Shown piece after piece: positions 10,934 through 28,614 of a stretch of 64,000 nucleotides of DNA. Within the stretch, counting starts at the first letter, position 1. Each line of letters starts with the position of its first letter. Location: contig NZ_CP059556.1 in assembly GCF_024734405.1 (NCBI RefSeq), positions 5,332,001 to 5,396,000 of the forward strand, read 5' to 3'. The notes under the pieces are model-generated. The model made no database searches, was not told the DNA's origin, and saw only the letters and a list, made by a program, of their open reading frames with translations. The position numbers and the translations under genes are program-made. The stretch comes from Saccharopolyspora gregorii. Its GTDB lineage: Bacteria > Actinomycetota > Actinomycetes > Mycobacteriales > Pseudonocardiaceae.

Positions 10934-13831
10934 TCAGCGGTGGGACGGGAACTCCACCACCTGCTGGTACGTCGGCCGGTTCTGCCAGCTGATCGGGTCG
11001 TGCGCGATGCCGCCGATCTTGTTGTGCACGATCGCGTCGGCGCACCACTGGTCGCCGGGTTCGCAGTCGGCGTCACCGGGGTAGGTCTGCTCGGCCGGCG
11101 TGTCGGCGGCGGCGCGGAGGCTGTCCTGCAGCGCCTGCCGGCACGCGTCGAGGTCTCCTTCACCGCACAGCGAGTTCCCGGGCGCGGCGGGCCCGGTGCC
11201 GAACCCGCCGGGCACCTCGTCGCCGAGCGCGCCGCGCAGGTTCTTCGACACCTGCCCGTACCAGCCGTTGAGGAACGCCGAGCCCTGGTGCGGCTGCCCG
11301 ACGTGCAGCCCGGGTTCCTCGTTCTGCCAACCGGAGGGCGATTCGTTGATGTGCTCGGCGCCGGTCAGCGCCCGGTAGGCGTCGGCGCCCACGGCGGGTT
11401 CGAAGATGCCGCGGGTGAGCTGCGGCCACCAGGCGTCGAGGAGTTCGACGGCGTCGGCGTGCGCGTACTCCCGGCTGCCGGGTTCGGTCTCGGTGCGGAG
11501 GCCGCCGTCGGCGAGCCAGGCGCGCAGCGAGTCGATCTCCCCGGCGAGCGCCGGGTCGACGGGCCCGCTGTCGAGCACCCGCAGCAGGTCCGGCAGCACG
11601 CGTTCGGCGCGCAGGTCGGCGACGGCGGCCTCGGACATGGCGCGGGTCAGTTCGGCCCGGTCGACGCCGCCCTGGGCGACGAGTCCGCGGACGCGGGAGT
11701 CGAGCAGGTCGCCGCGCTGCACGGCACCCTTGTTGAGGCCCGCGCCGCTGGTCCCGGGCGCCTGCTTGTTGTTCCAGCTGACGTAGTAGTCCTGGTCGAC
11801 GGACTGCGGGTGCTGCTCCGGCGGCAGGTACCGGGCGGTGTTCCCGTCGGGGTTCCAGTCCTGCCAGTCGTGGGCGGGGTCGGCGAGCACCGGCATGCTG
11901 GGGTCGACGTGCGGTTGCCGCGCCGGGTTGGCCCCGGAGTTGAAGTAGGCGGTGTGCTCGGCGTCGGCGTAGAACCAGTTGAAGGTGTAGTTCACGTCGT
12001 TCGCGGCCTGCTGGAACGCTTCCGGCGAGGTGATCTCGCCGGGGTCGTTGAACCGCTGGAACCCGATGATCGAGTCGACCTCGTGCTGGAAGGTGGAGCG
12101 CAGCGTGGTGTAGGCGACGGGTTTTCCGCCGATGGTGGCGCGGTGGGTGATCGGCCCGTACTCGGTGCGGAAGGACACGAGCCGGTAGGAGCCGGCGGGG
12201 GTGTCGTCACCGAGGTTCGGTTCCCACGCGTTGCGCCGCTCGACCTGCTTCATCGGCACGCATTCACCGCGGAACAGGTAGTGGTCGGCGTCCTTGGTGG
12301 CGGGACCGCCGTCCGGGGAGCAGAGCTCGACGGCGTAGGTGTCGATGATGTCCTGGGCGGCGGTGGTGGCGCTCCACGAGTAGTCCTGGCCGCGGCCGAG
12401 CAGCGTGTAGAAGCTGAGTCCCGCGAACGAGGCGCCCTGGGAGGAGATCCCGGGCCCCTGCAGCTCTTGCAGGGTGAGCAGCTGCGGCGCGAAGTACCCG
12501 GTCTGCGGCCCGTACACGGCGATGGGGTGCCCGCTGGCGGTGTGCTCGCCGGAGACGAGCAGCGCGTTGGACATGCCGCGCGGTTCGGCCATGCCCGCGG
12601 GCAGCACGCCGTCGTCGAACATGCCGCGCAGCGCGTCGACCTGCTCTTCGTGGGGCAGCGGCCGTTCGGGCGCGGCTTCGGGGGCGGTCTGCGGCCCGGG
12701 CGCGGCGGCGTCGGGTTCGGCGGCGGAGCCGGTCTCGTCGAACACGAGCTGCTGCTCGGTGACGGAGCCGGGGTCGGGCATGGCGCGGCCCTGCGGGTCG
12801 TCCGGGGTGGCGGCGTAGGGGAATTCGCTGCCGTCGTGCACGGTGGAGATGGCTTCGGGGTCGTTCTCGGCGCGGAAGGTGCGCCAGACCTGTTCGCCGC
12901 GTTCGGGCCCGAAGCGCTCGTGCAGGGACATGCGGGCCACCGCCTGCTGCACTTCGTTGCCGCCTCCGCCGCCGAACTGGGCGCCGACGACGGAGGCCAG
13001 CACGACGAGGTCGGTGAGCTCGAACGGTTCGATCTCGCCCGCGTTGGTGATGGGGTCGACGTGGCCGGTGGCGACGTATTCGCCGGGGAAGTAGCGGCCG
13101 TCGTGGGCTTCGCGGAGGTAGGTGTTGATGCCGTCCACGTAGGACTGCGCGTCGGCGAGGGCCTGCGCACCGCGCGGTCCCGATGCGGCGGCGTTGTCGA
13201 TCTGCTGCTGCAGCTCCTCCTCGGTGTAGGGCGAGGTGGCGAAGAAGCTCTGCTCCAGTTCGCGGTTCGCGGGGGCGCCGCCGGCGAAGGGGCTGACCTC
13301 GCCGCGTCCGGCGTGGCGCAGCACGTCCATCAGGAACAGCTTGTCCTCGGCGGTGGCGTACCCGGCGCCGAAGGTGGTGCCCGCGCGGGTGTCGCCGTAG
13401 ATGTGCGGGACTCCGGCGGACTTGTCCCGCACGACCGTGACGTCTTCGCGCGGCCGGTAGGTGCGGTCCACGTCGTCGGGTTCGACGCCGAAGGAGTTGT
13501 CGCTGAAGAACTCGTCGATGGTGCCGGTGGTGAGCTGCTTGTACCCGGTGGCCAGGTCGGCGTAGGGCGCGATCTGGTCATCGGAGTGCTTCGGCTTGGT
13601 GCCGAACAGCAGGTGTCCGGCGAGTTCGGCGAGCGTGGCGTTGCCGTTCTGGCCGGGTGGCAGCACGTGGTGGCACTGCCCGCCGCAGTGGTCCGGGACC
13701 TCGGGCGCGGTGAACCCGGACGTGCCGGGTGCGGCGGGCTCGGGGGCGGCGGCTGCGGCGGGGGCGAGGGCGAGCGCGCCGAGGAGGGCGCCGACGCCGA
13801 GTGCGGCGGTGATGCGGTGCGGCCCGGCCAT
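10934..13831 (-). CDS. Secreted penicillin-acylase-family Ntn hydrolase
   Basis: 965 residues with a signal peptide (residues 1-29, LAPAAAAA before the likely cleavage). The precursor has the layout of penicillin amidase family enzymes. An alpha chain (to about 390) contains DVTVVRDKSAGVPHIYGDTRAG. It is followed by a spacer rich in Ala, Pro and Glu, and then a beta chain expected to begin at Ser421 (GMSNALLVSGEHTASG) after self-cleavage. Ser421 would be the N-terminal nucleophile. Downstream marks include GPQTGYFAPQLL and the Asn-rich YTFNWFYADAEHTAYFNSG. Members cleave amide bonds in beta-lactams, acyl-homoserine lactones, cyclic lipopeptides or related molecules; the substrate cannot be chosen from sequence. 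It stands alone, with four palindromes just beyond its stop. Confidence 0.92.
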   Translation of the reverse strand: MAGPHRITAALGVGALLGALALAPAAAAAPEPAAPGTSGFTAPEVPDHCGGQCHHVLPPGQNGNATLAELAGHLLFGTKPKHSDDQIAPYADLATGYKQLTTGTIDEFFSDNSFGVEPDDVDRTYRPREDVTVVRDKSAGVPHIYGDTRAGTTFGAGYATAEDKLFLMDVLRHAGRGEVSPFAGGAPANRELEQSFFATSPYTEEELQQQIDNAAASGPRGAQALADAQSYVDGINTYLREAHDGRYFPGEYVATGHVDPITNAGEIEPFELTDLVVLASVVGAQFGGGGGNEVQQAVARMSLHERFGPERGEQVWRTFRAENDPEAISTVHDGSEFPYAATPDDPQGRAMPDPGSVTEQQLVFDETGSAAEPDAAAPGPQTAPEAAPERPLPHEEQVDALRGMFDDGVLPAGMAEPRGMSNALLVSGEHTASGHPIAVYGPQTGYFAPQLLTLQELQGPGISSQGASFAGLSFYTLLGRGQDYSWSATTAAQDIIDTYAVELCSPDGGPATKDADHYLFRGECVPMKQVERRNAWEPNLGDDTPAGSYRLVSFRTEYGPITHRATIGGKPVAYTTLRSTFQHEVDSIIGFQRFNDPGEITSPEAFQQAANDVNYTFNWFYADAEHTAYFNSGANPARQPHVDPSMPVLADPAHDWQDWNPDGNTARYLPPEQHPQSVDQDYYVSWNNKQAPGTSGAGLNKGAVQRGDLLDSRVRGLVAQGGVDRAELTRAMSEAAVADLRAERVLPDLLRVLDSGPVDPALAGEIDSLRAWLADGGLRTETEPGSREYAHADAVELLDAWWPQLTRGIFEPAVGADAYRALTGAEHINESPSGWQNEEPGLHVGQPHQGSAFLNGWYGQVSKNLRGALGDEVPGGFGTGPAAPGNSLCGEGDLDACRQALQDSLRAAADTPAEQTYPGDADCEPGDQWCADAIVHNKIGGIAHDPISWQNRPTYQQVVEFPSHR

Positions 13832-15104: not shown

Positions 15105-16178
15105 TCAGCCGCTGGTGGGCCGCTCCGCGCGCCACTCGTCGTGCCTGCTGGTCAACGCCGCCCACAACCGGTTCAGCGGGTGGTCCGCGTCGTGCTGCCC
15201 GAGTTCGCCCGCCCTGGCGAACGCGCCGACCAGCACCTCCAGCCGCGGCTCCAGGTCGCCGAGCACGTCGAGGATCCGCAGGCCGCGGCCGTCCGGCAGC
15301 CTGCCGTCCGCGGCGGCCTCCGCGACGCCGCGGGTGACCAGCATGCAGCCGTGCAGCAGCCCGGAGCTGAGCAGTTCCAGCCCGTAGCGCACGTCGTCGA
15401 CCTCGGCGGCCACGTTCAGCAGGCCCCGGTAGTCGGCGCCGTACCAGCCGCGCAGGAACTCGGCGACCAGCCCGCTGCCCGCGACGATCAGCGGTAGCCG
15501 GGGCAGCCCGGCGGCGCGCACCGCGGGGCCGGGGACCAGCCTGCGGTCCAGGTTGGTGACGAGGGTGAGCCCGCTGCGCCGCCACTCCAGCACGTCGAGG
15601 CCCGCCGGGTTCGCGCCGACGTGGGTGAGCGTGCTGCCGCAGACCAGGTCGACCTCGTTGGCGCGCAACGCTTCCAGCAGGTTGCGAGTGCGCAGGTGCA
15701 CCACCTTGAGGTCGATGCCGTCGGCGCGGAACCCGGCGGCGACCCGTTCCACGGCGGGCGTGAGGAAGCCGAGGGTGAACCGGGTGGTGCCGACCCGCAG
15801 CGAACCGCCGACGCGGCGCCGGGAGTCGGTGACGACGTCCAGCCAGTCGTCGAGGGTGTCCCGCGCGCGTTCGACCAGCGCTTCGCCGGTGCCGGTGAAC
15901 AGCGCGCTCTTCCCCCTGCCCTGCTTGAGCACCAGCGGTTCGCCGCACAGTTCCCGGAAGTTCCGGTTCAGCGTGTCCAGCTGCTTCTGCACGCTGGACT
16001 GCTCGCGTCCGAGCAGCCGGGCCGCGGCCAGCGCGGTGCCCGCCTCGTGCACCACCACCAGGGTCCGCAGCTGGTCCAGCGTCGTGTCCAGGAGTGCTTG
16101 CGGGGCGCGCACCCGCCGGTGTTCGGCTTCGGCGAGCGCGATCTCGGAGGCTCCGGGCAACGTCAGGTGTCCTTCCAC
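15105..16178 (-). CDS. LysR-type transcriptional regulator
   Basis: 357 residues from GTG 16178 (start uncertain; codons upstream stay open but are of non-coding character). The winged HTH covers about residues 30-90 (TTLDQLRTLVVVHEAG, then LGREQSSVQKQLDTLNRNF). An effector-binding domain follows, beginning with GGSLRVGTTRFTLGFLTPAV, a typical start for the periplasmic-binding-like fold. The C-terminal helix region (LGDLEPRLEVLVGAFARAGEL) is longer than usual. A perfect 24-bp palindrome lies 11 bp upstream of the start. It is divergent from an XRE-type regulator 454 bp away. The effector and targets are unknown; the divergent arrangement suggests self-regulation. Confidence 0.85.
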   Translation of the reverse strand: MEGHLTLPGASEIALAEAEHRRVRAPQALLDTTLDQLRTLVVVHEAGTALAAARLLGREQSSVQKQLDTLNRNFRELCGEPLVLKQGRGKSALFTGTGEALVERARDTLDDWLDVVTDSRRRVGGSLRVGTTRFTLGFLTPAVERVAAGFRADGIDLKVVHLRTRNLLEALRANEVDLVCGSTLTHVGANPAGLDVLEWRRSGLTLVTNLDRRLVPGPAVRAAGLPRLPLIVAGSGLVAEFLRGWYGADYRGLLNVAAEVDDVRYGLELLSSGLLHGCMLVTRGVAEAAADGRLPDGRGLRILDVLGDLEPRLEVLVGAFARAGELGQHDADHPLNRLWAALTSRHDEWRAERPTSG

Positions 16179-16632
16179 ATGTGCGGTACCGCCCGCTCCG
16201 CGGAGCGGGCGGGCTGCGACCACCACGCGCGGGCGGCTGACGACCCTCCCCGGGGTGAGTCTATCCCCGCGAACTGATCTCGACTGCAGGCCACATGTTC
16301 CTGCGGTTCGTCGGTCGTTCCGGTGGAAGCGGCGGCGGCGCTCGTGCCACTCTGGTCCCAGCGGCGCCGAGGGGGACGCCGCGAGGCATCCGGGGGGTCG
16401 GATGGCCTGGGGGTGGCGGGGGCCCGGTTTCCGGGTCCCCGCGACATCACCGCGCGTGGCGGCCGGGGGATCGGGCACGGAAGCGGGGCTGCGCTGGAGG
16501 ATTCCGCTCCGGGAAGTTCTCGGCAGGGGCGCATCTTCGGTGCAGGGCCGGGAATCTGCGGCCGTTCGGGCAGTTCACCAGTACCTGATCGAGCGACGGT
16601 TTTTTCCGCGCTGGCACCATATTCTGACGATC
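16179..16632. other. 454-bp divergent intergenic region (LysR / XRE)
   Basis: No convincing gene is visible. Next to the LysR start is the palindrome at 16189-16212. The XRE side has a T-rich stretch (GGTTTTTTCC around 16598) and an AT-richer CATATTCTG just before the ATG, a possible promoter with no clear -35 box. The central part is G-rich. Confidence 0.5.
16189..16212. promoter_or_regulatory. Perfect 24-bp palindrome upstream of the LysR gene
   Basis: The 12 bases at 16189-16200 are the exact reverse complement of 16201-16212 (centre GCTCCGCGGAGC). It begins 11 bp before the proposed GTG start, so it could be an operator or, in the mRNA, a hairpin masking the ribosome site. Which of these holds cannot be told. 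Confidence 0.6.
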
Positions 16633-17487
16633 ATGTCGAACTCCCCCCGGGCCCGCGCGCTGGCGGCCGAGGTCCGCAAGGTGCGCAAGGACAAAGGGAT
16701 GTCCCAGGGAGTGCTCGCCGAACAGCTGGGCTGGAGCATCGCGAAGATCAGCCGGATCGAGACGGCGCAGCGCGGCATCGGCGGCCCCGACCTGGCCGCG
16801 GTGCTCGCGGCGCTGCGGGTGCGCGGCAAGCGGCGCGAGCAGCTGCTGACGATGGCCGAGGAGCTGGGCCGCCCGTCGTGGTGGGAGGCGATGGCGGGGC
16901 TCTCGGCGCACACGCGCGCGTGCATCGACGCGGAGCAGCGCGCCTCCCGGCTCACCGAGCTCAGCCTCGGCTACGTGCCGGTGCTGCTGCAGACCCGGGC
17001 GTACGCGACCGCGGTGTGCGCGGCGTCCGGTGCGGGCACGGGCGAGGTGGACGAGCAGGTCAACGTGCGGCAGGTGCGGCAGGGCATCCTGCACAAGGCC
17101 TCGCCGGTGGCGTTGACGGCGTACCTGGACGAATCGGTGCTGACCCGGCCCGTGGGCGGTGCGGCGGTGATGGGCGGGCAGCTGCGGCACCTGCTGCGCT
17201 CCGCGGAGGCGCCGAACATCGCGGTGCGGGTGCTGCCGACGAACCTGGGGGTGCACGCGGGGCTCGGCGGGCCGTTCACGCTGATCGAGTTCGCGCGCGG
17301 GGTGGCGACGGTGCTGCTGGAGAGCCAGGAGTGCGGACTGCTGCTGGACGACGAGGAGCGGGTGGCCGCGTTCCGCGAGTCCGTCGACTGCCTGGACCGG
17401 GTCGCGCTGGGCACGGTGGAATCCCGCGCGATCATCGGCGGCTACGCGACGAAGTTCGAAGACCGCTCCACCCGCCAGCTCACCTGA
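16633..17487 (+). CDS. XRE-family HTH regulator with DUF5753
   Basis: 284 residues from ATG 16633. The N-terminal XRE helix-turn-helix covers about residues 8-62 (MSQGVLAEQLGWSIAKISRIE). The rest is a DUF5753 sensor-like domain with typical phrases (LGYVPVLLQTRAYATAVCAA, LPTNLGVHAGLGGPFTLIEF). Such proteins are abundant in mycelial actinomycetes, and several affect development and antibiotic production. They usually pair with a DUF397 gene; none is next to this one, unlike the second copy at 37870. A hairpin terminator follows within 10 bp of the stop. The target is unknown. Confidence 0.9.
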   Translation: MSNSPRARALAAEVRKVRKDKGMSQGVLAEQLGWSIAKISRIETAQRGIGGPDLAAVLAALRVRGKRREQLLTMAEELGRPSWWEAMAGLSAHTRACIDAEQRASRLTELSLGYVPVLLQTRAYATAVCAASGAGTGEVDEQVNVRQVRQGILHKASPVALTAYLDESVLTRPVGGAAVMGGQLRHLLRSAEAPNIAVRVLPTNLGVHAGLGGPFTLIEFARGVATVLLESQECGLLLDDEERVAAFRESVDCLDRVALGTVESRAIIGGYATKFEDRSTRQLT

Positions 17488-19306: not shown

Positions 19307-20389
19307 ATGAAACCCAGCAGCCAGAACGGGATTGGCACTGTGACCTCAATTGTGCACCAGCTCTCCCTGAACGAGAATTTCGCCCCACCGCTGCCCGGCG
19401 TGAGAACTGCCGCCGAAGCCGCCCTCGACACGCTGAACCTCACTCCGGACCCGTTCTCGTCGGATCTGGTGGCGCGCGTGGCCGAGCACCACGGGGTGGC
19501 CGCGGAGCGCGTGCTGGCCGGCGTCGGTTCGGGAGCGCTGCTCCAGCAGTTCCTGCAGGTCCACGCGGGCCCGGGCACCGAGGTGGTGCACCCCTGGCCG
19601 TCGTTCGAGATGTACCCGCTGATGATCCGCAACGCCGGGGCGAGCGCGGTGGGGGTGCCGCTGCGGGATTCGGCGCACGACCTGGACGCGATGGCGGCCG
19701 CGGTCACGGGCCGCACCCGGGTGGTGCTGTTGTGCAACCCCAACAATCCGACCGGGTCGATCCTCACCGCGGAACAGATCACCGGGTTCCTCGATCGCAT
19801 TCCGAGTGATGTGCACGTCGTGCTCGACGAGGCTTACATCGACTTCGCCACCGGGACCGGCGAGACCATTGCGGATGGAATCGAACTAGCCCGAACGGAC
19901 CACCGGCTCACCATCGCTCGGACCTTTTCCAAGTCGTACGGGCTGCTCGGCATGCGCGTCGGTTACCTGCTGGGGGCGGAGCCGGTGGTGGCCGCGTTGA
20001 AGCCGAGCGCGCTGTTCTTCCGGGTGAGCGGGCCCGCGCAGGCGGCGGCCGCGGCGGCGCTGGCGGCATCCGAGGTGATGCGCGCCCAGTGCGCGGAGGT
20101 CGCGGCCGAACGGGACCGGCTCCGGGAAGGCCTGCTGGCGCACGGGATCCCGGTGCCCGCCAGCGGCGGGAACTTCCTGTGGCTGCCGCTGGGCGGAGCG
20201 AACCAGCGGTTCGTGGACCGGTGCGCCGGGCGCGGTGTGGTGGTGCGGGAGATCGCCGAGTCCGGGGTGCGGCTGACCGTCGGCACCCGCGCGGCGAACG
20301 ACCTGGTGCTGGAGGTCGCGGCCGAGTTCTCCGCCGCGGACGCCACCGCCGGAGACCTGGCCGCCGAGGTCAGCGAGCCCGCCCGGTGA
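19307..20389 (+). CDS. HisC-like PLP-dependent aminotransferase of the terpenoid cluster
   Basis: 360 residues, fold type I class I/II aminotransferase. PLP-binding marks are the Asn of LCNPNNPTG (142-150), the Asp of LDEAYIDF and the Schiff-base Lys209 in TFSKSYGLLGMRVGY. The N terminus (LSLNENFAPPLPGV) and general layout match histidinol-phosphate aminotransferases. The location beside prenyl-metabolism genes argues against housekeeping histidine synthesis. It may make or remove an amine in the cluster product or supply an aromatic acceptor. The stop overlaps the GTG of the polyprenyl synthase by four bases. GTG 19340 is an alternative start. Confidence 0.85.
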   Translation: MKPSSQNGIGTVTSIVHQLSLNENFAPPLPGVRTAAEAALDTLNLTPDPFSSDLVARVAEHHGVAAERVLAGVGSGALLQQFLQVHAGPGTEVVHPWPSFEMYPLMIRNAGASAVGVPLRDSAHDLDAMAAAVTGRTRVVLLCNPNNPTGSILTAEQITGFLDRIPSDVHVVLDEAYIDFATGTGETIADGIELARTDHRLTIARTFSKSYGLLGMRVGYLLGAEPVVAALKPSALFFRVSGPAQAAAAAALAASEVMRAQCAEVAAERDRLREGLLAHGIPVPASGGNFLWLPLGGANQRFVDRCAGRGVVVREIAESGVRLTVGTRAANDLVLEVAAEFSAADATAGDLAAEVSEPAR

Positions 20390-21408
20390 CCGCCCGGATC
20401 AGCGACGCCCACGACCTGGCCGGGGATCCGGCGGCGCTGCTGGCCGCTTCCCCGGTGGCCGCGGAACTGCGCGCGGAGCTGGAACGCCGCTGGCCTGCGG
20501 GCACCGACCACATCGGGGAGGTGTCGCGGTACGCGCTGCTGGCGCCGGGCAAGATGCTGCGGCCGGTGATGCTGGTCGCGGCCGCGGAGGCCGTCGGCGG
20601 GGATCGCGCGGCGGTGCTGCCCGCCGCGGTCGCCATCGAGTACCTGCACGTGGCCTCGCTGGTGCACGACGACATCATCGACGGCGACGAGCTGCGGCGG
20701 GGCCGGGCTTCGGTGCCGGTGCGGTTCGGGGTGCCGGACGCGATCGTCACCGGCGACGCGTTGATCCTGAGCCTGTTCGCCGCGCTCACCGAGTGCGGAC
20801 TGCCCGCCGAACCGGTGCTGGCGGCGGTGCGCGCGGTCGCCGACGCGGGCGTGGACCTGTGCCGGGGGCAGGCGTTGGAGGCGGAGCTGCTGCGGGATCC
20901 GGCGTGCCCGCCGGAGCGGTACCGGCGGATGGCGGCGTTGAAGACGGGCGCCCTGTTCCGAGCGGCGTGCCGGTCCGGTGCGGTGCTCGGCGGCGGGGAC
21001 ACCGAGCAGGTGGCGGCGGCGACGCGGTTCGCCGACCGAGTCGGCACCGCGTTCCAGATGCACGACGACCTGCTGCCGTACCTGGCGGAGACCGAGGTGA
21101 CCGGCAAGTCCGGCAGCAGCGACGCGGGGAACATGCGGCCGACGTTCCCGGTGATCGTGGCGCACGGCATGGCGGGTGCGCGGGATCGCGCGCTGCTCGC
21201 GGAAGCGCTCAGCGGCCACCGGTCCCCGGTGGAGTCGTTCGCGCTGCTGCGGGAGGTGCTGACCCGGCTGGGCGCGGTGGAGCGCGCCGCGGCGGAGGCC
21301 GCCGAGGAGATCCGGCGGGCGCACCGGGACTTGGCGGTGCTGCCGGGCGGAGACGGTGCGCGGCTGCTGGCGGCGGTGGCGGACCTCGCGATCCACCGGG
21401 ACCGCTAG
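20386..21408 (+). CDS. Polyprenyl diphosphate synthase
   Basis: 340 residues, GTG start overlapping the upstream stop. The first aspartate-rich motif is DDIID at 95-99 in SLVHDDIIDGDELRRG. The second is HDDLLPYLAE, with the terminal Asp of DDxxD replaced as in CrtE-type geranylgeranyl synthases. The GKMLRP substrate-binding lysine-arginine loop is at about 55-60 and TGKSG follows the second motif. It should condense isopentenyl diphosphate with allylic diphosphates in trans. Chain length (C20 or longer) cannot be decided from the residues before the first motif. It supplies the chain for the UbiA and cyclase proteins encoded next. Confidence 0.92.
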   Translation: MTARISDAHDLAGDPAALLAASPVAAELRAELERRWPAGTDHIGEVSRYALLAPGKMLRPVMLVAAAEAVGGDRAAVLPAAVAIEYLHVASLVHDDIIDGDELRRGRASVPVRFGVPDAIVTGDALILSLFAALTECGLPAEPVLAAVRAVADAGVDLCRGQALEAELLRDPACPPERYRRMAALKTGALFRAACRSGAVLGGGDTEQVAAATRFADRVGTAFQMHDDLLPYLAETEVTGKSGSSDAGNMRPTFPVIVAHGMAGARDRALLAEALSGHRSPVESFALLREVLTRLGAVERAAAEAAEEIRRAHRDLAVLPGGDGARLLAAVADLAIHRDR

Positions 21409-21410
21409 CC

Positions 21411-22400
21411 GTGGCCGCATCGATGTCCGCGGTGCGCCGCGGGATCCGGGCGCACGTGGAGACCTGGCGGCCCTACACCACCTGCTATCCGGCGATGGTG
21501 GGGATCGCGGGCGCGGTCACCGCCGGCGCCGGGTGGGGCGTGCCGCTGCTGGCGGCGGCGGTGGTGCCCGCGCTGGGCTGGTTGTCCGGGCACTACTTGG
21601 GCGACTACTTCGACCGGGAGCTGGATGCGATCGGGAAGCCGCAGCGCCCCATCCCGTCCGGCCGGTTGTCGCCGCGGGCGGCGCTGGCCTGCGGGGTGGG
21701 CTGCGCGGCGGCGGCCGCGGTGTTCGCGCTGCTGGTGAACTGGAACGCGGTGCTGCTGGTGGTGGTGGCGACGGCGGGCATCGTCGCCTACAGCCGGTTC
21801 TGCAAAGCGCGCGGCCTGTCCGGGAACCTGGTGCGCGGTTCGCTGACGGCGCTGGCGCTGGCGGCGGGTGCGCTGCTGGGCGCGGACCGGGTGCCGTGGA
21901 CGGTGCTGGTGTTCGCGCTGGTGTTCCTGGCGCACGACGCGGCGTCGAACCTGGTGGGGACGATGCGCGACGTGGACGGCGACCGGGCGGGCGGCTACCG
22001 CTCGGTGCCGGTGCGCAGCGGCATCCCGGTGGCGGTGCGCACGTCGTTCGCGCTGTACGCGTCGGGGTTGCTGGTGGTGCTGGCGCTGGCGGAGGCGGTG
22101 CCGCAGCGGGGCGGTTACTCTGCGTTGGCGACGGTGGCGGCGTGCGCGGGGACGGCGGCGTTCTCCTTGCTGCTGGAGCACATCCGGGAGCTTCCGCCGC
22201 GGAAGGCGTTGCGGGCGCACGAGATCCTCGTCGCGGAGCGGCTGGTGCTGGCGGGCGCGCTGATCGCGGGTGCGGCGGGTCTGTGGCTCGCGTTGGCGGT
22301 GCTGGTGCCCGCGTTGGTCTTCAGCCTCGGTGCGCAGGCCGTGCTGCGTTCGGGGCACGAGTTCCCCACGGCGGAGCGACGGGAGGCGACGCTGCCATGA
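21411..22400 (+). CDS. UbiA-family membrane prenyltransferase
   Basis: 329 residues from GTG 21411, two bases after the previous stop; ATG 21423 is an alternative. About eight or nine membrane helices. The first Asp motif is GDYFDRELD (Asp65, Asp68, Asp72), with Gly where most family members have Asn. The second is MRDVDGDRAGGYRS. Both would bind the Mg-diphosphate of the prenyl donor. Members prenylate aromatic or polar acceptors, and some act as terpene cyclases, so either role is open here. The stop overlaps the ATG of the cyclase-like gene (ATGA). Which acceptor is used is unknown. Confidence 0.9.
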   Translation: MAASMSAVRRGIRAHVETWRPYTTCYPAMVGIAGAVTAGAGWGVPLLAAAVVPALGWLSGHYLGDYFDRELDAIGKPQRPIPSGRLSPRAALACGVGCAAAAAVFALLVNWNAVLLVVVATAGIVAYSRFCKARGLSGNLVRGSLTALALAAGALLGADRVPWTVLVFALVFLAHDAASNLVGTMRDVDGDRAGGYRSVPVRSGIPVAVRTSFALYASGLLVVLALAEAVPQRGGYSALATVAACAGTAAFSLLLEHIRELPPRKALRAHEILVAERLVLAGALIAGAAGLWLALAVLVPALVFSLGAQAVLRSGHEFPTAERREATLP

Positions 22401-24064
22401 CGACTTCGCGGGCCGAGGAGGTCTCCGAGGCGATCGAGGCCGCGGCGGAGGCCGTGTTCGCGGCGCGGCGGCCGGACGGCGTGTTCGACTACTCGGAGGA
22501 CGGGCTGACGTCCACGTTGAGCACGGTGGGCGCGGTGAGCGCGCTGCACTTCGCCGATCCGCGCGGTTCGGCGGACCTGATCGAGCGGGGCGTGGCGTGG
22601 CTGCGGGAGCGGCAGTCGGACACCGGCGGCTGGAGCATGGTGCCGGGCGGCGCGGACGAGCCGGGGCCGACGGCGGTGGCGTCGGCGACGTTGCAGCTGG
22701 TGGCGCCGGAGTCGGCGGCGGACGCGGTGGCGGCCGGGCAGCGCTGGATGCTGGACCACGGTGGCCTGGAAGGGATTCCGCACCCGGAGGTGACGGCCTG
22801 GTGCCGCCAGTTCTACTCGTTCGTCGGCTGGTTGCGGACGTCGGACATGCGCCGGTTCCCGCTGGAGCTGGCGGTGCTGCGCGGCGCGTTCCTGCGGTTG
22901 TTCGACCTGCGGGCGCCGATGGTGTGCGCGCTGGGGTTGGCGCAGGCGGCGACTCGGGAGCAGACGCCGCTGACGCGGTTGCTGGCGAAGGCGGGCACGC
23001 CGGGCGCGCTGGCGATCATCCGCGAGGTCTACGAGCACGAGGGCAGCACCGGTGGCTGGTGCGAGGACGCGTGGGTGACCGGGTTGATCTGCGGTGGGCT
23101 GGCGCGCGCCGGGCTCGGCGCGGACATGGTGGCGGGCGCGGTCCGCTGGTTCCGGGAGCAGGTGAACGAAGACGGGTCGTGGAACAGCGGCCCGCTGGGG
23201 TTGACCTGGTCGATGTACGCGGCGGGCGGGCTGCTGGAAGCGGGGTACGCGACCGACGAGCGGTTGCTGGCGACGCGGGAGGTGTTCCTGCGGGAGCAGC
23301 AGCACCGGCCGTTCACCGCGTTCGGCTGCCCGCCGGGGTTCTGGGGCTGGTCCGGCAAGGGCTGGCCGGCCTCGCTGGAGACCGGGGAGATCATGTCGGC
23401 GCTGGCGCGCTTCCCCGGTGAGCTGCAGCGCCCGGCGCTGGAGTCGGGCGCGCGCTGGTTGTTCGCGCAGCAGGACTCGCGGGGTTCGTGGGGCCTGTGC
23501 GTGCGGAACACGAAGGTCGCCAACAGCGGGCCGTGCCCGCACATGACGGCGCAGTCGCTGGACGGGCTGCTGGATTCCGGGGTTCCGGCGGCCGATCGGC
23601 GAATCCGCCGGGCGGTGCGCTGGCTGGCGAGCGCGCAGCGGCCGGACGGGTCGTTCGAGTCGGTCTGGTACCGGATGCACACGGCGGGCACGTCGGCGGT
23701 GCTGCAGACGCTGGTGCGGGCCGGGGCGGGCGGTTCCGACGCGGCGCGGCGGGCGCGGGAGTGGCTGGTGCGCGCGCAGCTGCCGGACGGTTCGTGGGGC
23801 ACCGGCGGCGACGAGCCGGGCACCGTCGAGGAGACGGCGTGGGCGGTCGGCGCGCTGCTGGTCGCGGGCGGAGGTGCCGACGGCGCGGAGGTGCGGCGCG
23901 GGGTGCGCTGGCTGCTGGACGCGCGCCGCCCGGACGGGTCCTGGTCGGCCGCGCCGGTGAACGAGTACGTGCGCCACGTGTCCCGCTACTCGAACCGGGC
24001 GCTGGCCAACGGGTTGGCGTTGCGCGCGCTGGCCCGCTACCGCGATGCCGCGGGGAGGAGTTGA
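22397..24064 (+). CDS. Squalene/oxidosqualene-cyclase-like protein lacking the DXDD motif
   Basis: 555 residues of alpha/alpha-barrel repeats with QW-like motifs (DTGGWS at 75-80, DGSWNS about 259, DGSFES about 417, DGSWGTG about 464, DGSWSA about 513). The C terminus NEYVRHVSRYSNRALANGL resembles the end of squalene-hopene cyclases. No DXDD, or even DD, occurs anywhere. At the expected place (residues 322-331) is GWPASLETGE, which lines up with GW-VSDCTAE of oxidosqualene cyclases: the catalytic Asp is Leu327 and the next position is Glu328. It may cyclise an epoxide formed by the FAD enzyme, use Glu as acid, or have lost cyclase activity. ATGA overlap upstream. Confidence 0.82.
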   Translation: MTTSRAEEVSEAIEAAAEAVFAARRPDGVFDYSEDGLTSTLSTVGAVSALHFADPRGSADLIERGVAWLRERQSDTGGWSMVPGGADEPGPTAVASATLQLVAPESAADAVAAGQRWMLDHGGLEGIPHPEVTAWCRQFYSFVGWLRTSDMRRFPLELAVLRGAFLRLFDLRAPMVCALGLAQAATREQTPLTRLLAKAGTPGALAIIREVYEHEGSTGGWCEDAWVTGLICGGLARAGLGADMVAGAVRWFREQVNEDGSWNSGPLGLTWSMYAAGGLLEAGYATDERLLATREVFLREQQHRPFTAFGCPPGFWGWSGKGWPASLETGEIMSALARFPGELQRPALESGARWLFAQQDSRGSWGLCVRNTKVANSGPCPHMTAQSLDGLLDSGVPAADRRIRRAVRWLASAQRPDGSFESVWYRMHTAGTSAVLQTLVRAGAGGSDAARRAREWLVRAQLPDGSWGTGGDEPGTVEETAWAVGALLVAGGGADGAEVRRGVRWLLDARRPDGSWSAAPVNEYVRHVSRYSNRALANGLALRALARYRDAAGRS

Positions 24065-24066
24065 CG

Positions 24067-25323
24067 GTGGACGCCGATGTGGTGGTGTGCGGGGCCGGGG
24101 TCGGTGGGCTCGCCGCGGCCTGCGCGCTGGGAGCGCGGGGTTTCCGCGTGCTGCTGCTGGAGAAGATGGCCGAGCCGTCGCGGGTCGCGAAGGGCGAGGT
24201 GCTGCAACCGGGCGCGCTGCGGGTGCTGCGCGAGTGGGGCGTGGCGCAGCGCTTGGAGTCGCGCGGCGGGCTGCGCCTGGCGCGGCTGGTGGCGCGGGAC
24301 ACCGCGGGCGCGCCGCTGATGGCGTTGGACTACGACCGGTTGCGGGAGCAGGAGCGGTGGCTGCTGGCCCACGACTACCCGGTGATTCTGGAGGCGTTGG
24401 CGGACCGGCTGGACGGCTCGGTGGAGTTCCGCCGCGGCGTGCTGGTGCGGGACCTGCTGCGGGACGCGGACGGCCGGGTCGCGGGGGTGCGGGTCGCCGA
24501 GGGCGGTCAGGAGCGGGAGGTGCGGGCGTCGCTGGTGGTCGCCGCGGACGGCATCTCCTCGCGGCTGCGGAAGTCGGCGGGCATCCCGGCGCACCGCGAC
24601 GAGTACCCGCACCGGTTGGCGGCGTTCGACATCGCCGACGCGCCGCGGGTCGAGCAGGACTTCTCGGCGTACGTCAGCGAACGCGGCCTGCGGTTGCGGT
24701 ATCCGCTGCCGGGCGGCCGGGTGCGGCTGTACGTGCAGGTGGGTGCGGACGAGCTGCGCGGGCTGGATTCCGACGGCATGGCCGGCTGGATCGAGCACCT
24801 GGTGCGGGACACGCCGGCACTGGAACCGCTGGCGGACGCGCTGCGGGCGAGCTCGGCGAACCGGCAGGTGCTGCCGGTGTCCCGGTTCTTGGCGCCGGGC
24901 CTGGGCGTTCCGGGGCTGGCGCTGGTCGGTGAGACGGGGCATTCGGTGCATCCGATGGCGGCGCAGGGCATGAACACGTCGATCACGGACGCGGAGAGCC
25001 TCGCCCGGCACGTGGGCGGGGAGCTGAGCCCTGCCGCGGTGGACGCGGGAATCCGCTCCTACGAGGCGGAACGGCTGCCCGAACTGGTCCACATCGGACG
25101 GACGAGCCACAACGCGGCCCGCATGATCACGGACCTGTCCTGGACGGGCCGCGTGGTGGGGCGACGGGCGCTGCGCTGCACCGGCGGCAACGACCGGCTG
25201 CGCTACACCGTCATGCACAACATGGCCGGGCTCGGGCAACACCGGTTGTCGCTGCTGGACCGGCTGCACCAGGTGGGGGTGCTGCCGGACCCGCGGGCGC
25301 GGCGCCTCCCGGCCTGGGCATGA
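24067..25323 (+). CDS. FAD-dependent monooxygenase/epoxidase-like enzyme
   Basis: 418 residues. GTG 24067 is chosen because AGGAG lies 6 bases before it; the TTG at 24061 would have no spacer. The Rossmann FAD motif is GAGVGG at 9-14. The DG motif is in VVAADGISSRLRKSAG. The second FAD motif is LALVGETGHSVHPMAAQGMN, with Gly-Glu where p-hydroxybenzoate-hydroxylase relatives have Gly-Asp. It is of the group that includes aromatic hydroxylases and squalene-epoxidase-like enzymes. Next to a cyclase-like gene, epoxidation of a prenyl chain is the attractive role, but hydroxylation of an aromatic head group is equally open. Confidence 0.88.
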   Translation: MDADVVVCGAGVGGLAAACALGARGFRVLLLEKMAEPSRVAKGEVLQPGALRVLREWGVAQRLESRGGLRLARLVARDTAGAPLMALDYDRLREQERWLLAHDYPVILEALADRLDGSVEFRRGVLVRDLLRDADGRVAGVRVAEGGQEREVRASLVVAADGISSRLRKSAGIPAHRDEYPHRLAAFDIADAPRVEQDFSAYVSERGLRLRYPLPGGRVRLYVQVGADELRGLDSDGMAGWIEHLVRDTPALEPLADALRASSANRQVLPVSRFLAPGLGVPGLALVGETGHSVHPMAAQGMNTSITDAESLARHVGGELSPAAVDAGIRSYEAERLPELVHIGRTSHNAARMITDLSWTGRVVGRRALRCTGGNDRLRYTVMHNMAGLGQHRLSLLDRLHQVGVLPDPRARRLPAWA

Positions 25324-25349
25324 GCGCCGCCCAGGCCGGGGACGGGTGG

Positions 25350-26363
25350 CTAGCCGGCGAGTGCGCACTCCACGAGCACCAGGCCGCCGTCCCAGCTGCG
25401 GCTGCCGCGCACCGCGAGACCGGCTTCGGCGGCCAGCGCCTCGAAGTCGGCGATGGAGCGCTCCCGGCCGCCGAGCAGCGACAGCGACTGCAGGTCGAAC
25501 GAGGAGTTGTTCTTCGCGTGCTCCTCCCCGGCCAGCACCTCCACCACCAGGACGCGTCCCGCGCTGCCCGCCGCTTCGGCGCAGCGGCGCAGGATGCGGA
25601 CCGCGTCGGCGTCCGGCCAGTCCGTCAGCACCCGCGACACCACGTACCGGTCGTAGCCGGCGGGCAGCTCGTCGAAGAAGCTGCCGGGCACGAACGCGGC
25701 GCGGTCGGCCACCTCGGACGCGGCGAGCGCCTCGTCGGCTTCGGCGGCCACCGGTGGCAGGTCCAGCACCGCGCCCTCCAGGTGCGATTGCCCGCGCAGC
25801 ACCTCGACGAGCAGCGCACCGACCCCGCCGCCGATGTCGATCACGCTCTTGACCGCGGACCAGTCGTACTCGGCGGCCAGCAGCGGGCCGGTCTGCCACG
25901 CGTGCGCGGCCATGATCGCGCCGAAGAACCCGCGCAGCGCGTCGTCGCGCTGGTAGTCCTCCCAGAACGGCACGCCGTGCACCGGTTCGTAACCGGAGCG
26001 GCCGGTGCGCACCGAGTGCGCCATGCCCGCGTACGCCAGGTCCATCTTCACACCCGGGCCGTCCAGGTCCAGCCACTTCTTCTGCCACGCGCTGTCCGCG
26101 CCCAGCAGGTGCCGGGACACGTCGGTCAGCGCGAAGCGGCCGTCCTGCTCGGCCACGAACCCGATCGCCACCAGGTGGCGCAGCAGCCGGGCCAGGGAAT
26201 CGGCGTCGGCCCCGGTGGCCGCCGCGAGCTCGGCGAGCCCGGTGGTGCCCTCCGCGATCCGGTCCGGGACGCCGAGCGTCACCGCCGCGCGCACCGCGAA
26301 CGGGGTGGCGAGGTCGGTCAGCGCCGCCAACCGCGCGCCGGGATCCGTCGTCTCCGAAGCCAT
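25350..26363 (-). CDS. O-methyltransferase, family 2
   Basis: 337 residues, ATG start with AGGAG 9 bases upstream. An N-terminal winged-helix dimerisation domain covers about residues 10-100 (DSLARLLRHLVAIGFVAEQDG). The AdoMet domain starts at VIDIGGGVGALLVEVL, followed by VLDLPPV and FVPGSFFDELPAGYD. The family's usual catalytic His is not obvious: the segment VVSRVLTDWPDADAVRILRR has Val-Leu-Thr-Asp-Trp where active members have His-Asp-Trp, so the general base may be lost or replaced. It is convergent with the FAD gene and probably tailors the cluster product. Similar proteins act on polyketides and quinones. Confidence 0.88.
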   Translation of the reverse strand: MASETTDPGARLAALTDLATPFAVRAAVTLGVPDRIAEGTTGLAELAAATGADADSLARLLRHLVAIGFVAEQDGRFALTDVSRHLLGADSAWQKKWLDLDGPGVKMDLAYAGMAHSVRTGRSGYEPVHGVPFWEDYQRDDALRGFFGAIMAAHAWQTGPLLAAEYDWSAVKSVIDIGGGVGALLVEVLRGQSHLEGAVLDLPPVAAEADEALAASEVADRAAFVPGSFFDELPAGYDRYVVSRVLTDWPDADAVRILRRCAEAAGSAGRVLVVEVLAGEEHAKNNSSFDLQSLSLLGGRERSIADFEALAAEAGLAVRGSRSWDGGLVLVECALAG

Positions 26364-26473
26364 ACTGGTGCACTCCTGTCCATGCTTCCGGTGTTCTCCA
26401 GCCGGGTTCCCGGCTCGCGATCCCCCGTTTTCCCGCGCATTCCACGCGGTTCTTCCGCCCGGGGAAAATCACC

Positions 26474-26525
26474 ACCGGAACCCGAATCCGGTTCGCGCAG
26501 CATCGCACCGGAACCCGATTCCGGT
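26474..26525. promoter_or_regulatory. Two operator-like dyads between methyltransferase and dioxygenase genes
   Basis: ACCGGAACCCGAATCCGGT (26474-26492) and ACCGGAACCCGATTCCGGT (26507-26525) differ at one base. Each has 6-bp inverted arms (ACCGGA/TCCGGT) around 7 bases. Their start-to-start distance is 33 bp, about three helical turns, which places both on the same face of the DNA. They lie centrally in the 266-bp divergent region. A dimeric regulator binding both is a reasonable inference. Confidence 0.6.
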
Positions 26526-26629
26526 CAAGAATTCGACCCGATCCGGACGGCGATTCCTCGATTCGCCGATCCGCCGTTCCGCATGCGCGGAACAAGTGTC
26601 ATCGGCTCCACTCAGAAAGGCGCATCATC

Positions 26630-27490
26630 ATGGCGGCTCCCGCTCAGGACACCGGCCTGCAGGTTCGCCCGATCAGCGGCGCACTCGGCGCCGAGGTCCG
26701 CGGCATCGACCTGAACTCCCTCACCGACGAGGCGTTCGCGCAGGTCCACGCACTGCTGCTCGAACACCTCGTGCTGTTCTTCCCCGAGGCCGCCGGGCTC
26801 GGGCCGCAGGCGCACATCGAGTTCGGCAAGCGGCTCGGGGAACTGGAAGTGCACCCGTTCCTGCCGAAGCTCGACGGGCACGAGGAAATCGTGGTGCTCG
26901 ATTCCGCGCAGGGCGCCAAAGCCGACGTGTGGCACACCGACGTCACGTTCAGCCCCACTCCGCCGGTCGCCTCCATCCTGCAGATCGTGCAATGCCCGCC
27001 GTTCGGCGGGGACACGATGTGGAGCAACCAGCACCGGGCTTACGAGTCCCTTTCCGCGCCGTTGCGCGACATGCTCGACGGGCTCACCGCGATCCACGTG
27101 TTCGAGCACCCCAACGGCTCGTTCCGCAGCGAAGCCGAGCACCCCGTGGTGCGGGTGCACCCGGAGACGGGGCGGCGCTCGCTGTACGTCAACCGCATGT
27201 TCACCCGGCGCATCCCGCAGCTGGCCGCCGCCGAGAGCGACGCGCTGCTCCAGCACCTGTACGCCGTCGCCGAGCACCCGAGCAACGTGTGCCGGTTCCG
27301 CTGGAACGCCGGGGCGATCGCCATGTGGGACAACCGCGCCACCCAGCACTACGCGATCAACGACTACACCGAGCGCCGCGTCGGCCAACGCGTCACCGTC
27401 CTCGGCGACACCCCTACGGGCGACACCCCGCGGTGGCCGCACCACGACGCGGACACCGGAGGCGCGGAAGCCCTGCGCACCAAGTCCTGA
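26630..27490 (+). CDS. TauD/TfdA-family 2-oxoglutarate-dependent dioxygenase
   Basis: 286 residues, ATG after an AAAGG site. The Fe(II) ligands are His102 and Asp104 (WHTDVTF) and His240 (RATQHYAIND), with Arg249 or Arg250 as the 2-oxoglutarate-binding Arg. The N-terminal GALGAEVRGIDL is typical of the family. In taurine dioxygenases the enzyme releases sulfite from sulfonates, while relatives hydroxylate many substrates. There is no sulfonate transporter beside it, and it is divergent from the methyltransferase gene across two operator-like dyads, so it may belong to the terpenoid cluster. Three palindromic repeats follow its stop. Confidence 0.9.
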   Translation: MAAPAQDTGLQVRPISGALGAEVRGIDLNSLTDEAFAQVHALLLEHLVLFFPEAAGLGPQAHIEFGKRLGELEVHPFLPKLDGHEEIVVLDSAQGAKADVWHTDVTFSPTPPVASILQIVQCPPFGGDTMWSNQHRAYESLSAPLRDMLDGLTAIHVFEHPNGSFRSEAEHPVVRVHPETGRRSLYVNRMFTRRIPQLAAAESDALLQHLYAVAEHPSNVCRFRWNAGAIAMWDNRATQHYAINDYTERRVGQRVTVLGDTPTGDTPRWPHHDADTGGAEALRTKS

Positions 27491-27771: not shown

Positions 27772-28614
27772 TCAGCCGGGGAAGGTGTGCGACCGCAACC
27801 CCGCCCCCGCCCCGGGCACGACGAGCACCGCCCCGTCCGCCGGCTCCGGTTCGGCGAGGCCGTCGCGGGCGGTCGTGATGTAGAGGTCGGTGAGGTCTTC
27901 GCCGCCGAAGCAGCAGCTCGTCGGGCGCCGGGACGGCAGCGGCACGGTCCGGTCGACCCGCCCGTCGGGCGCGTAGCGGCGCACTTCCCCGCGGTCCCGC
28001 ACCGCGACCCACAGGAATCCGTCGGCGTCGGCGCACATCCCGGCGGGTTCCCCGTCGACGTCGAACGCGGTGCGGCGCTCGGTGGCGGCGCCGGTCACCT
28101 GGTCGACGGTCAGCACGTCGATGCGGCGGGCGGCGCTGTCGGCGAGGTGGAGCCGGGTGTCGTCGGGGCTCCAGGCGAGCCCGTTGCCCGCGGCGATCCC
28201 GTCGACGACCACGTGCGCGGCGCCGTTCGGGTCGACGCGGACGAGCCATCCGCCGCCGCTCTCGTCCTCGCGCACGGTGGTCGCCCAGACCCGTCCGCCC
28301 ACGTCGACGGTGGTCTCGCCGGCGCGGACCCCGTCGCGGGCCCAGAAGGTGAGCCAGGTGCGGCGTTCCCCGTCGGCGTCGTACAGCGCGACGCCCTCGT
28401 CGAAGTGCAGCAGCAGTCCGCCGCGGGTGCGCGGTTTGGCGGCGCTGACCTGCTGCGGGACCTGCATGGCGTGGTCGGTGTCGTCGGGCGCGTAGCGGTG
28501 CACGGTGCGGGCGCGCAGGTCGGTCCACAGCAGGCTCGCGGTTCCCGCGTCCCAGGTGGGGCCGTGCCCGTGGTGCGCTGCGGCAGGCACGGCCTGCTCG
28601 GCGGTGGTGGGCAC
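27772..28614 (-). CDS. SMP-30/gluconolactonase-like beta-propeller protein
   Basis: 280 residues, ATG start. The six-bladed propeller phrases are visible: GPTWDAGTASLLWTDL near the N terminus, then ANGLAWSPDDTRLHLADS-like wording (GNGLAWSPDDTRLHLADSA), DGEPAGMCADADGFLWVAV, and RPTSCCFGGEDLTDLYITTA. The early Glu that usually binds metal (as in EGP) is replaced: the first blade reads HGPTWD. The Asn and Asp ligands (GNGLAWS, HLADS) are present. Active members hydrolyse lactones with a divalent metal; with one ligand changed, activity is uncertain. It is convergent with the dioxygenase gene and divergent from the rhomboid gene. Confidence 0.82.
   Translation of the reverse strand: MPTTAEQAVPAAAHHGHGPTWDAGTASLLWTDLRARTVHRYAPDDTDHAMQVPQQVSAAKPRTRGGLLLHFDEGVALYDADGERRTWLTFWARDGVRAGETTVDVGGRVWATTVREDESGGGWLVRVDPNGAAHVVVDGIAAGNGLAWSPDDTRLHLADSAARRIDVLTVDQVTGAATERRTAFDVDGEPAGMCADADGFLWVAVRDRGEVRRYAPDGRVDRTVPLPSRRPTSCCFGGEDLTDLYITTARDGLAEPEPADGAVLVVPGAGAGLRSHTFPG

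Follow-up and report, generated by a model that had tools for sequence, protein, structure and literature searches.

The window analyzed here is a 64,000-nucleotide stretch of Saccharopolyspora gregorii DNA, spanning positions 5332001–5396000 of a 6.34-Mb single-contig genome. At window positions 19307–27490 it carries seven genes that an original prediction, made from the letters alone, had described as a terpenoid-type biosynthetic cluster. Five close-packed genes on the plus strand are followed by a convergent O-methyltransferase gene and then by a divergent gene for a TauD-type dioxygenase. The plus-strand run opens with a pyridoxal phosphate aminotransferase resembling Pat and HisC2 (19307–20389, +; Pfam PF00155 Aminotran_1_2, 6.7e-53) and continues with a polyprenyl diphosphate synthase (20386–21408, +; PF00348 polyprenyl_synt, 8.4e-55), a UbiA-family prenyltransferase (21411–22400, +; PF01040 UbiA, 2e-33), a class II cyclase of the squalene-cyclase fold without the DxDD motif (22397–24064, +; SQHop_cyclase_C, 2.3e-26) and a flavin adenine dinucleotide (FAD) monooxygenase (24067–25323, +; PF01494 FAD_binding_3, 2.1e-37; PF08491 squalene epoxidase, 6e-6). 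Along this run, the first and third junctions are overlaps of 4 bp each, and the second and fourth are gaps of 2 bp. The O-methyltransferase gene occupies 25350–26363 on the minus strand (PF00891 Methyltransf_2, 3.5e-37), and the last gene (26630–27490, +) encodes an Fe/2-oxoglutarate dioxygenase similar to PlaO1 (PF02668 TauD, 2.6e-62). All seven genes, for which we chose the start codons, are intact and open, and their Pfam matches lie far beyond chance, which confirms the families originally assigned to them. The ratio of nonsynonymous to synonymous substitution rates (dN/dS) of the seven genes is 0.15–0.37 when measured against two congeneric loci, L048 (genome G003) and L033 (NFXS83), and 0.30–0.72 against the distant loci L034 and L043, where high dS makes the values less reliable.

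We compared the locus with 35 cyclase-centered stretches (L033–L067) with flanks of up to about 10 kb, comprising 15 GTDB contigs and 20 stretches selected from the places found in searches of the genus and the order. When these were searched with the window proteins using tblastn, all seven families were present in 29 of the 35; the full set was missing from L054 (no FAD monooxygenase or TauD dioxygenase), L055 (no FAD monooxygenase, O-methyltransferase or TauD dioxygenase) and L062–L065. A stricter, simple gene caller recovered all seven in 26 stretches, the window included. The hosts belong to Saccharopolyspora, Nocardia, Streptomyces, Actinokineospora, Amycolatopsis, Actinosynnema and Umezawaea, and one contig is filed under Melainabacteria. 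Gene order varies among the stretches, and in some of them the cyclase gene is set apart from the others in the opposite orientation. Since the seven families co-occur in 29 of 35 stretches and do so in several orders, these genes belong together as a set. Across 26 stretches, the pairwise identities of the seven genes are moreover correlated with r values of 0.79–0.95, which was not reached for any pair in 300 permutations.

Within the order, 27 of 397 genomes carry the cyclase (E up to 1e-40); it was also found in 3 of 6 genomes of the genus, in 4 of 394 genomes drawn from the class and in 3 of 150 genomes drawn from the genus Nocardia. When plasmid carriage was examined, none of 72,556 plasmid records gave a match at an E value of 1e-20. 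The PlaO1-like dioxygenase was detected in 25 of the same 397 genomes (E up to 1e-70), 24 of which also possess the cyclase, so that 24 of the 27 cyclase genomes carry both. The genome with a PlaO1-like dioxygenase and no cyclase match is G307; in its stretch (L101) none of the other six families was found according to our labels, and a neighboring gene appears by eye to be sulfotransferase-like. A second, diverged cluster occurs in genome G370, which also holds the seven-gene set: this stretch (L063) encodes a cyclase reading NALE at the motif, an FAD monooxygenase, a chain synthase and two P450-cluster genes, and no UbiA gene was found in it.

Within the cluster, the greatest interest attaches to the cyclase. 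It is 555 residues long and is predicted to adopt the two-domain alpha-alpha barrel of the squalene cyclases, in keeping with a class II squalene/oxidosqualene cyclase fold. The catalytic DxDD motif is absent, the aligned place reading ASLE in phmmer, in two MAFFT runs and in hidden Markov model alignments. In 32 aligned members of the group, counted with L062–L065 and L113 as outgroup and with L046 (cyclase in two pieces) and L115 outside the count, the third residue at this place is L in 31 and M in one, and the fourth is E in all 32; the L115 cyclase reads VE instead of LE at 327–328. The conserved features are W323-P-x-x-[LM]327-E328-[TS]-x-E331 together with C380. In the alignment with human lanosterol synthase, L327-E328-T-x-E331 falls on the D-C-T-A-E motif and the invariant C380 on a cysteine. 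E328, helped by E331 and C380, probably stands in for the missing DxDD aspartate. The genome's own canonical squalene-hopene cyclase is a different protein encoded elsewhere (about 2853537–2855597; L002, L003), whose intact PDTDDTA served as an internal control. G167, G173 and G256, the three genomes with a cyclase and no dioxygenase, read ESED, ESED and ETDD at the motif place (L065, L064 and L062, respectively); their stretches contain UbiA and P450-cluster genes, and these related cyclases are possible intermediates between the DxDD and LE types. A further comparison is offered by MstE, a type II terpene cyclase from Scytonema, of which about 350 residues are resolved as opposed to the 555 of the window cyclase and for which D109 mutants appear in PDB titles, so that its acid is probably placed otherwise. 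The atolypene (ato) cluster of Amycolatopsis tolypomycina is reported to be a bacterial meroterpenoid cluster with a non-canonical class II cyclase.

In the polyprenyl diphosphate synthase, DDIID at 95–99 and D227/D228 are kept in aligned relatives, and the enzyme probably makes geranylgeranyl diphosphate (GGPP), a chain length that we infer. The aspartates of both UbiA motifs (D65, D68 and D72; D187 and D191) are similarly kept. The FAD monooxygenase matches PDB entries 2x3n and 6c6n, the latter a squalene monooxygenase, and by this resemblance we propose it to be a terminal-alkene epoxidase. For the aminotransferase, K209 within SKSYG is kept in aligned relatives, the nearest solved structure is the putative phenylalanine aminotransferase 4r2n (1.5e-72), and the score on the NCBIfam hisC model is 238.5 bits, below the equivalog cut-off of 276.55. 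The protein thus appears closer to the aromatic aminotransferase Pat than to HisC, and its former label "HisC-like" fits only loosely. The next best match in the same genome, at 153048, shows 48% identity. An intruding hisC gene is ruled out by the score below the hisC cut-off, the match to 4r2n and the presence of the aminotransferase in 31 of the 35 stretches (tblastn). This frequency, together with the amino-acid side chain of brasilicardin, also speaks against the earlier view of the aminotransferase as the unusual member of the cluster.

The nearest solved structure to the dioxygenase is that of PlaO1 (7qtd, 5.1e-106), and its iron-ligand residues H102, D104 and H240 are kept in aligned relatives; by this close kinship and these ligands it qualifies as a putative PlaO1-like enzyme. 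PlaO1 itself we take to act in lactone formation during phenalinolactone biosynthesis. The O-methyltransferase has 3i53 as its nearest PDB match (4.6e-78). Enzymes of this class usually read HDW in the relevant region, where both the window protein and that of the Nocardia genome G424 have TDW, which may point to a non-phenolic acceptor.

These enzyme classes recall the biosynthesis of brasilicardin A, a tricyclic diterpene with an amino-acid side chain. In the portions of the published work covered here, its cluster in Nocardia terpenica IFM 0406 comprises bra0–bra12, of which bra1–bra6 form the core, bra0 and bra11 serve methoxylation, bra7–bra9 presumably provide 3-hydroxybenzoate and bra10 presumably attaches L-rhamnose. 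Bra0 is described there as a dioxygenase on the way to the C16 methoxy group, bra12 as a Streptomyces antibiotic regulatory protein (SARP) activator and a flanking LysR regulator as lowering production. The window likewise offers plausible enzyme classes for the core as well as a TauD dioxygenase and an O-methyltransferase, a putative likeness at the level of enzyme functions. In Nocardia G424, the genes for the aminotransferase, polyprenyl synthase, UbiA protein, cyclase and FAD monooxygenase are followed by those for a cytochrome P450 (P450), a PapA5-like acyltransferase, a rhamnosyltransferase (TIGR01556, 154 bits, below the cut-off of 200.55) and an O-methyltransferase. This run appears to mirror the published partition of bra, with the logic of brasilicardin biosynthesis in one stretch, and serves here as a stand-in for bra without being bra itself. 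Another stretch, L059 from genus g38, combines the core with two P450-cluster genes, two EryCIII-like glycosyltransferases and a KASIII-like protein; ABC-transporter-like genes were noted there by eye.

Based on this analogy, we read the locus as a minimal, sugar-free cluster of the brasilicardin type that would produce an unglycosylated terpenyl amino acid, a reading to which we assign a probability of roughly two-thirds. In our judgment it is a real, conserved and widely shared cluster and a sugar-free variant of the brasilicardin kind. The gene families, the intact reading frames, the co-occurrence, the predicted cyclase fold and the absence of DxDD are observations, to which we add the following inferred enzymatic steps. 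The chain synthase would supply GGPP, which UbiA would couple with a C3 acceptor of the enolpyruvate or pyruvate type to give an alpha-keto acid; this acceptor is proposed because of the reported atolypene work and the C23 logic of the trinulactones, called dinorsesterterpenoids in a reference title. The FAD enzyme would epoxidize the far alkene, and the cyclase would open the epoxide to form a tricyclic core of the perhydrophenanthrene type, whereby prenylation, epoxidation and cyclization could take place in any order. An alpha-amino acid would arise from the terpenyl alpha-keto acid through the aminotransferase, while the PlaO1-like dioxygenase would place a hydroxyl group on the side chain and the O-methyltransferase would cap it as a methoxy group. 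Hence, the gene content fits the meroterpenoid-type logic of chain synthase, UbiA, FAD epoxidase-like enzyme and class II cyclase fold that was originally proposed, and it also supports the oxidized, methylated and probably amine-containing product that had been envisaged. Close resemblance to a cluster of known product, which the original prediction had listed among the findings that would refute it, applies in part, through enzyme functions and not through sequence.

Several observations weigh against this assignment. The proposed kinship to bra follows from enzyme functions and not from sequence, with bra1–bra6 matched as a block, as far as the passages covered go, and not enzyme by enzyme. 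A C20 and a longer chain both fit the synthase, for which the analysis covered the conserved aspartate motifs, and the identity correlations may have been raised by host kinship. The dioxygenase was not found in the fetched stretch of G424. P450 genes occur in G424 and in 26 of the 35 stretches, none being seen in the other nine; the window has no P450 match, the 40 places with matches elsewhere in the genome being unsorted. Searches of the whole genome for the rhamnosyltransferase (TIGR01556) and PapA_C families gave no above-cut-off match, and within the window not even a weaker one, with other routes to these parts unsearched. Since the window lacks a P450 and the genome an above-cut-off rhamnosyltransferase or PapA_C match, the product is not brasilicardin A and we do not class the locus as a brasilicardin A cluster; unlike for bra, the predicted product is a bare aglycone.

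The PlaO1-like dioxygenase would also suit a pathway of the phenalinolactone/tiancilactone type, in which this enzyme drives the conversion of the C3 side chain into a gamma-butyrolactone, with a side role for the aminotransferase. The dioxygenase is indeed nearest to PlaO1, and diterpene-plus-small-unit skeletons are common to these systems: as far as the sources go, tiancilactones, close analogs of phenalinolactone, consist of a diterpene backbone and a gamma-butyrolactone, and the title given to the trinulactones agrees with C20 plus C3. However, the products of these systems are terpene glycosides or lactones, whereas the window-type set usually adds an aminotransferase and an O-methyltransferase. 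Both stand beside the dioxygenase in 29 of the 35 stretches and suit the amino-acid side chain and methoxy group of brasilicardin and not a lactone, so that we consider this outcome unlikely. Still less likely, in our estimate, is an aromatic acceptor as in the zigralone (zig) pathway of Micromonospora zingiberis, where the Pat-like aminotransferase would generate an aromatic pyruvate, e.g. indole-3-pyruvate, for prenylation by UbiA. The zig cluster shares an aminotransferase, a chain synthase, UbiA and methyltransferases with the window, and ZigA/B/C are proposed to turn tryptophan into a prenylated indole intermediate (PMC13307353). Its cyclase, though, is Pyr4-like and its epoxidase a P450; the cluster has five P450s and an indole-derived core, and no cyclase resembling squalene-hopene cyclase is among the genes given in that paper (PMC13307353). 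The seven-gene set itself holds no aromatic-modifying enzyme, and the PlaO1-like enzyme and the acyl- and rhamnosyltransferases of G424 favor the brasilicardin side.

A housekeeping isoprenoid locus for hopanoids or quinones, which the original prediction had named as one finding that would overturn it, could account for the presence of squalene-hopene-cyclase-like, UbiA and polyprenyl synthase families. It is ruled out by the separate squalene-hopene cyclase with PDTDDTA and by the rarity of the window cyclase, which only 27 of the 397 genomes searched in the order possess and which is far from near-universal in the genus; in addition, the FAD monooxygenase, O-methyltransferase and dioxygenase genes travel with the cyclase.

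Beyond the assignment to a sugar-free brasilicardin-type cluster, we tentatively suggest that the seven-gene set is a common core on which glycosylated brasilicardin-like compounds are built up, that the bare terpenyl amino acid is itself a bioactive end product, perhaps acting on amino-acid transport, and that the cyclase opens the epoxide via a glutamate one residue off the usual aspartate, in a manner distinct from both DxDD and DCTAE; this wider picture is rather doubtful as a whole. Amino-acid transport is named as the target of brasilicardin A in a reference title. Brasilicardin A is described in the published material covered as a lead for immunosuppression whose supply is difficult and which is currently obtained from a heterologous intermediate by semisynthesis. 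A small core of seven genes, free of sugar genes and present in Saccharopolyspora and relatives, could ease the making and varying of this scaffold, and a cyclase family with [LM]E[TS]xE in place of DxDD would provide a direct test of epoxide activation by a squalene-cyclase fold without the usual acid.

Our literature search, which covered few subscription papers and only some of those listed, recognized no publication on this locus. Clusters of a brasilicardin-like sort have been flagged before by others, in the parts of these papers covered without a product given: one paper notes a weak similarity of a Pseudonocardia "cluster Q" to brasilicardin A (PMC5183585), and a table lists a Micromonospora cluster with 23% identity to the brasilicardin A cluster (PMC8146288).

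Around the seven genes, an SMP-30 gene at 27772–28614 is ruled out as a cluster member, as it adjoins the cluster only in the congeneric loci L033 and L048. Among the window genes scanned, which represent part of the window and were also inspected for a counterpart of bra12, the upstream regulators are of the LysR type (15105–16478, −) and the helix-turn-helix/DUF5753 type (16633–17487, +); within the loci compared, both are common only to L033 and L048. Further upstream, at 10934–13831 (−), lies the gene for a 965-residue member of the penicillin amidase family (PF01804).

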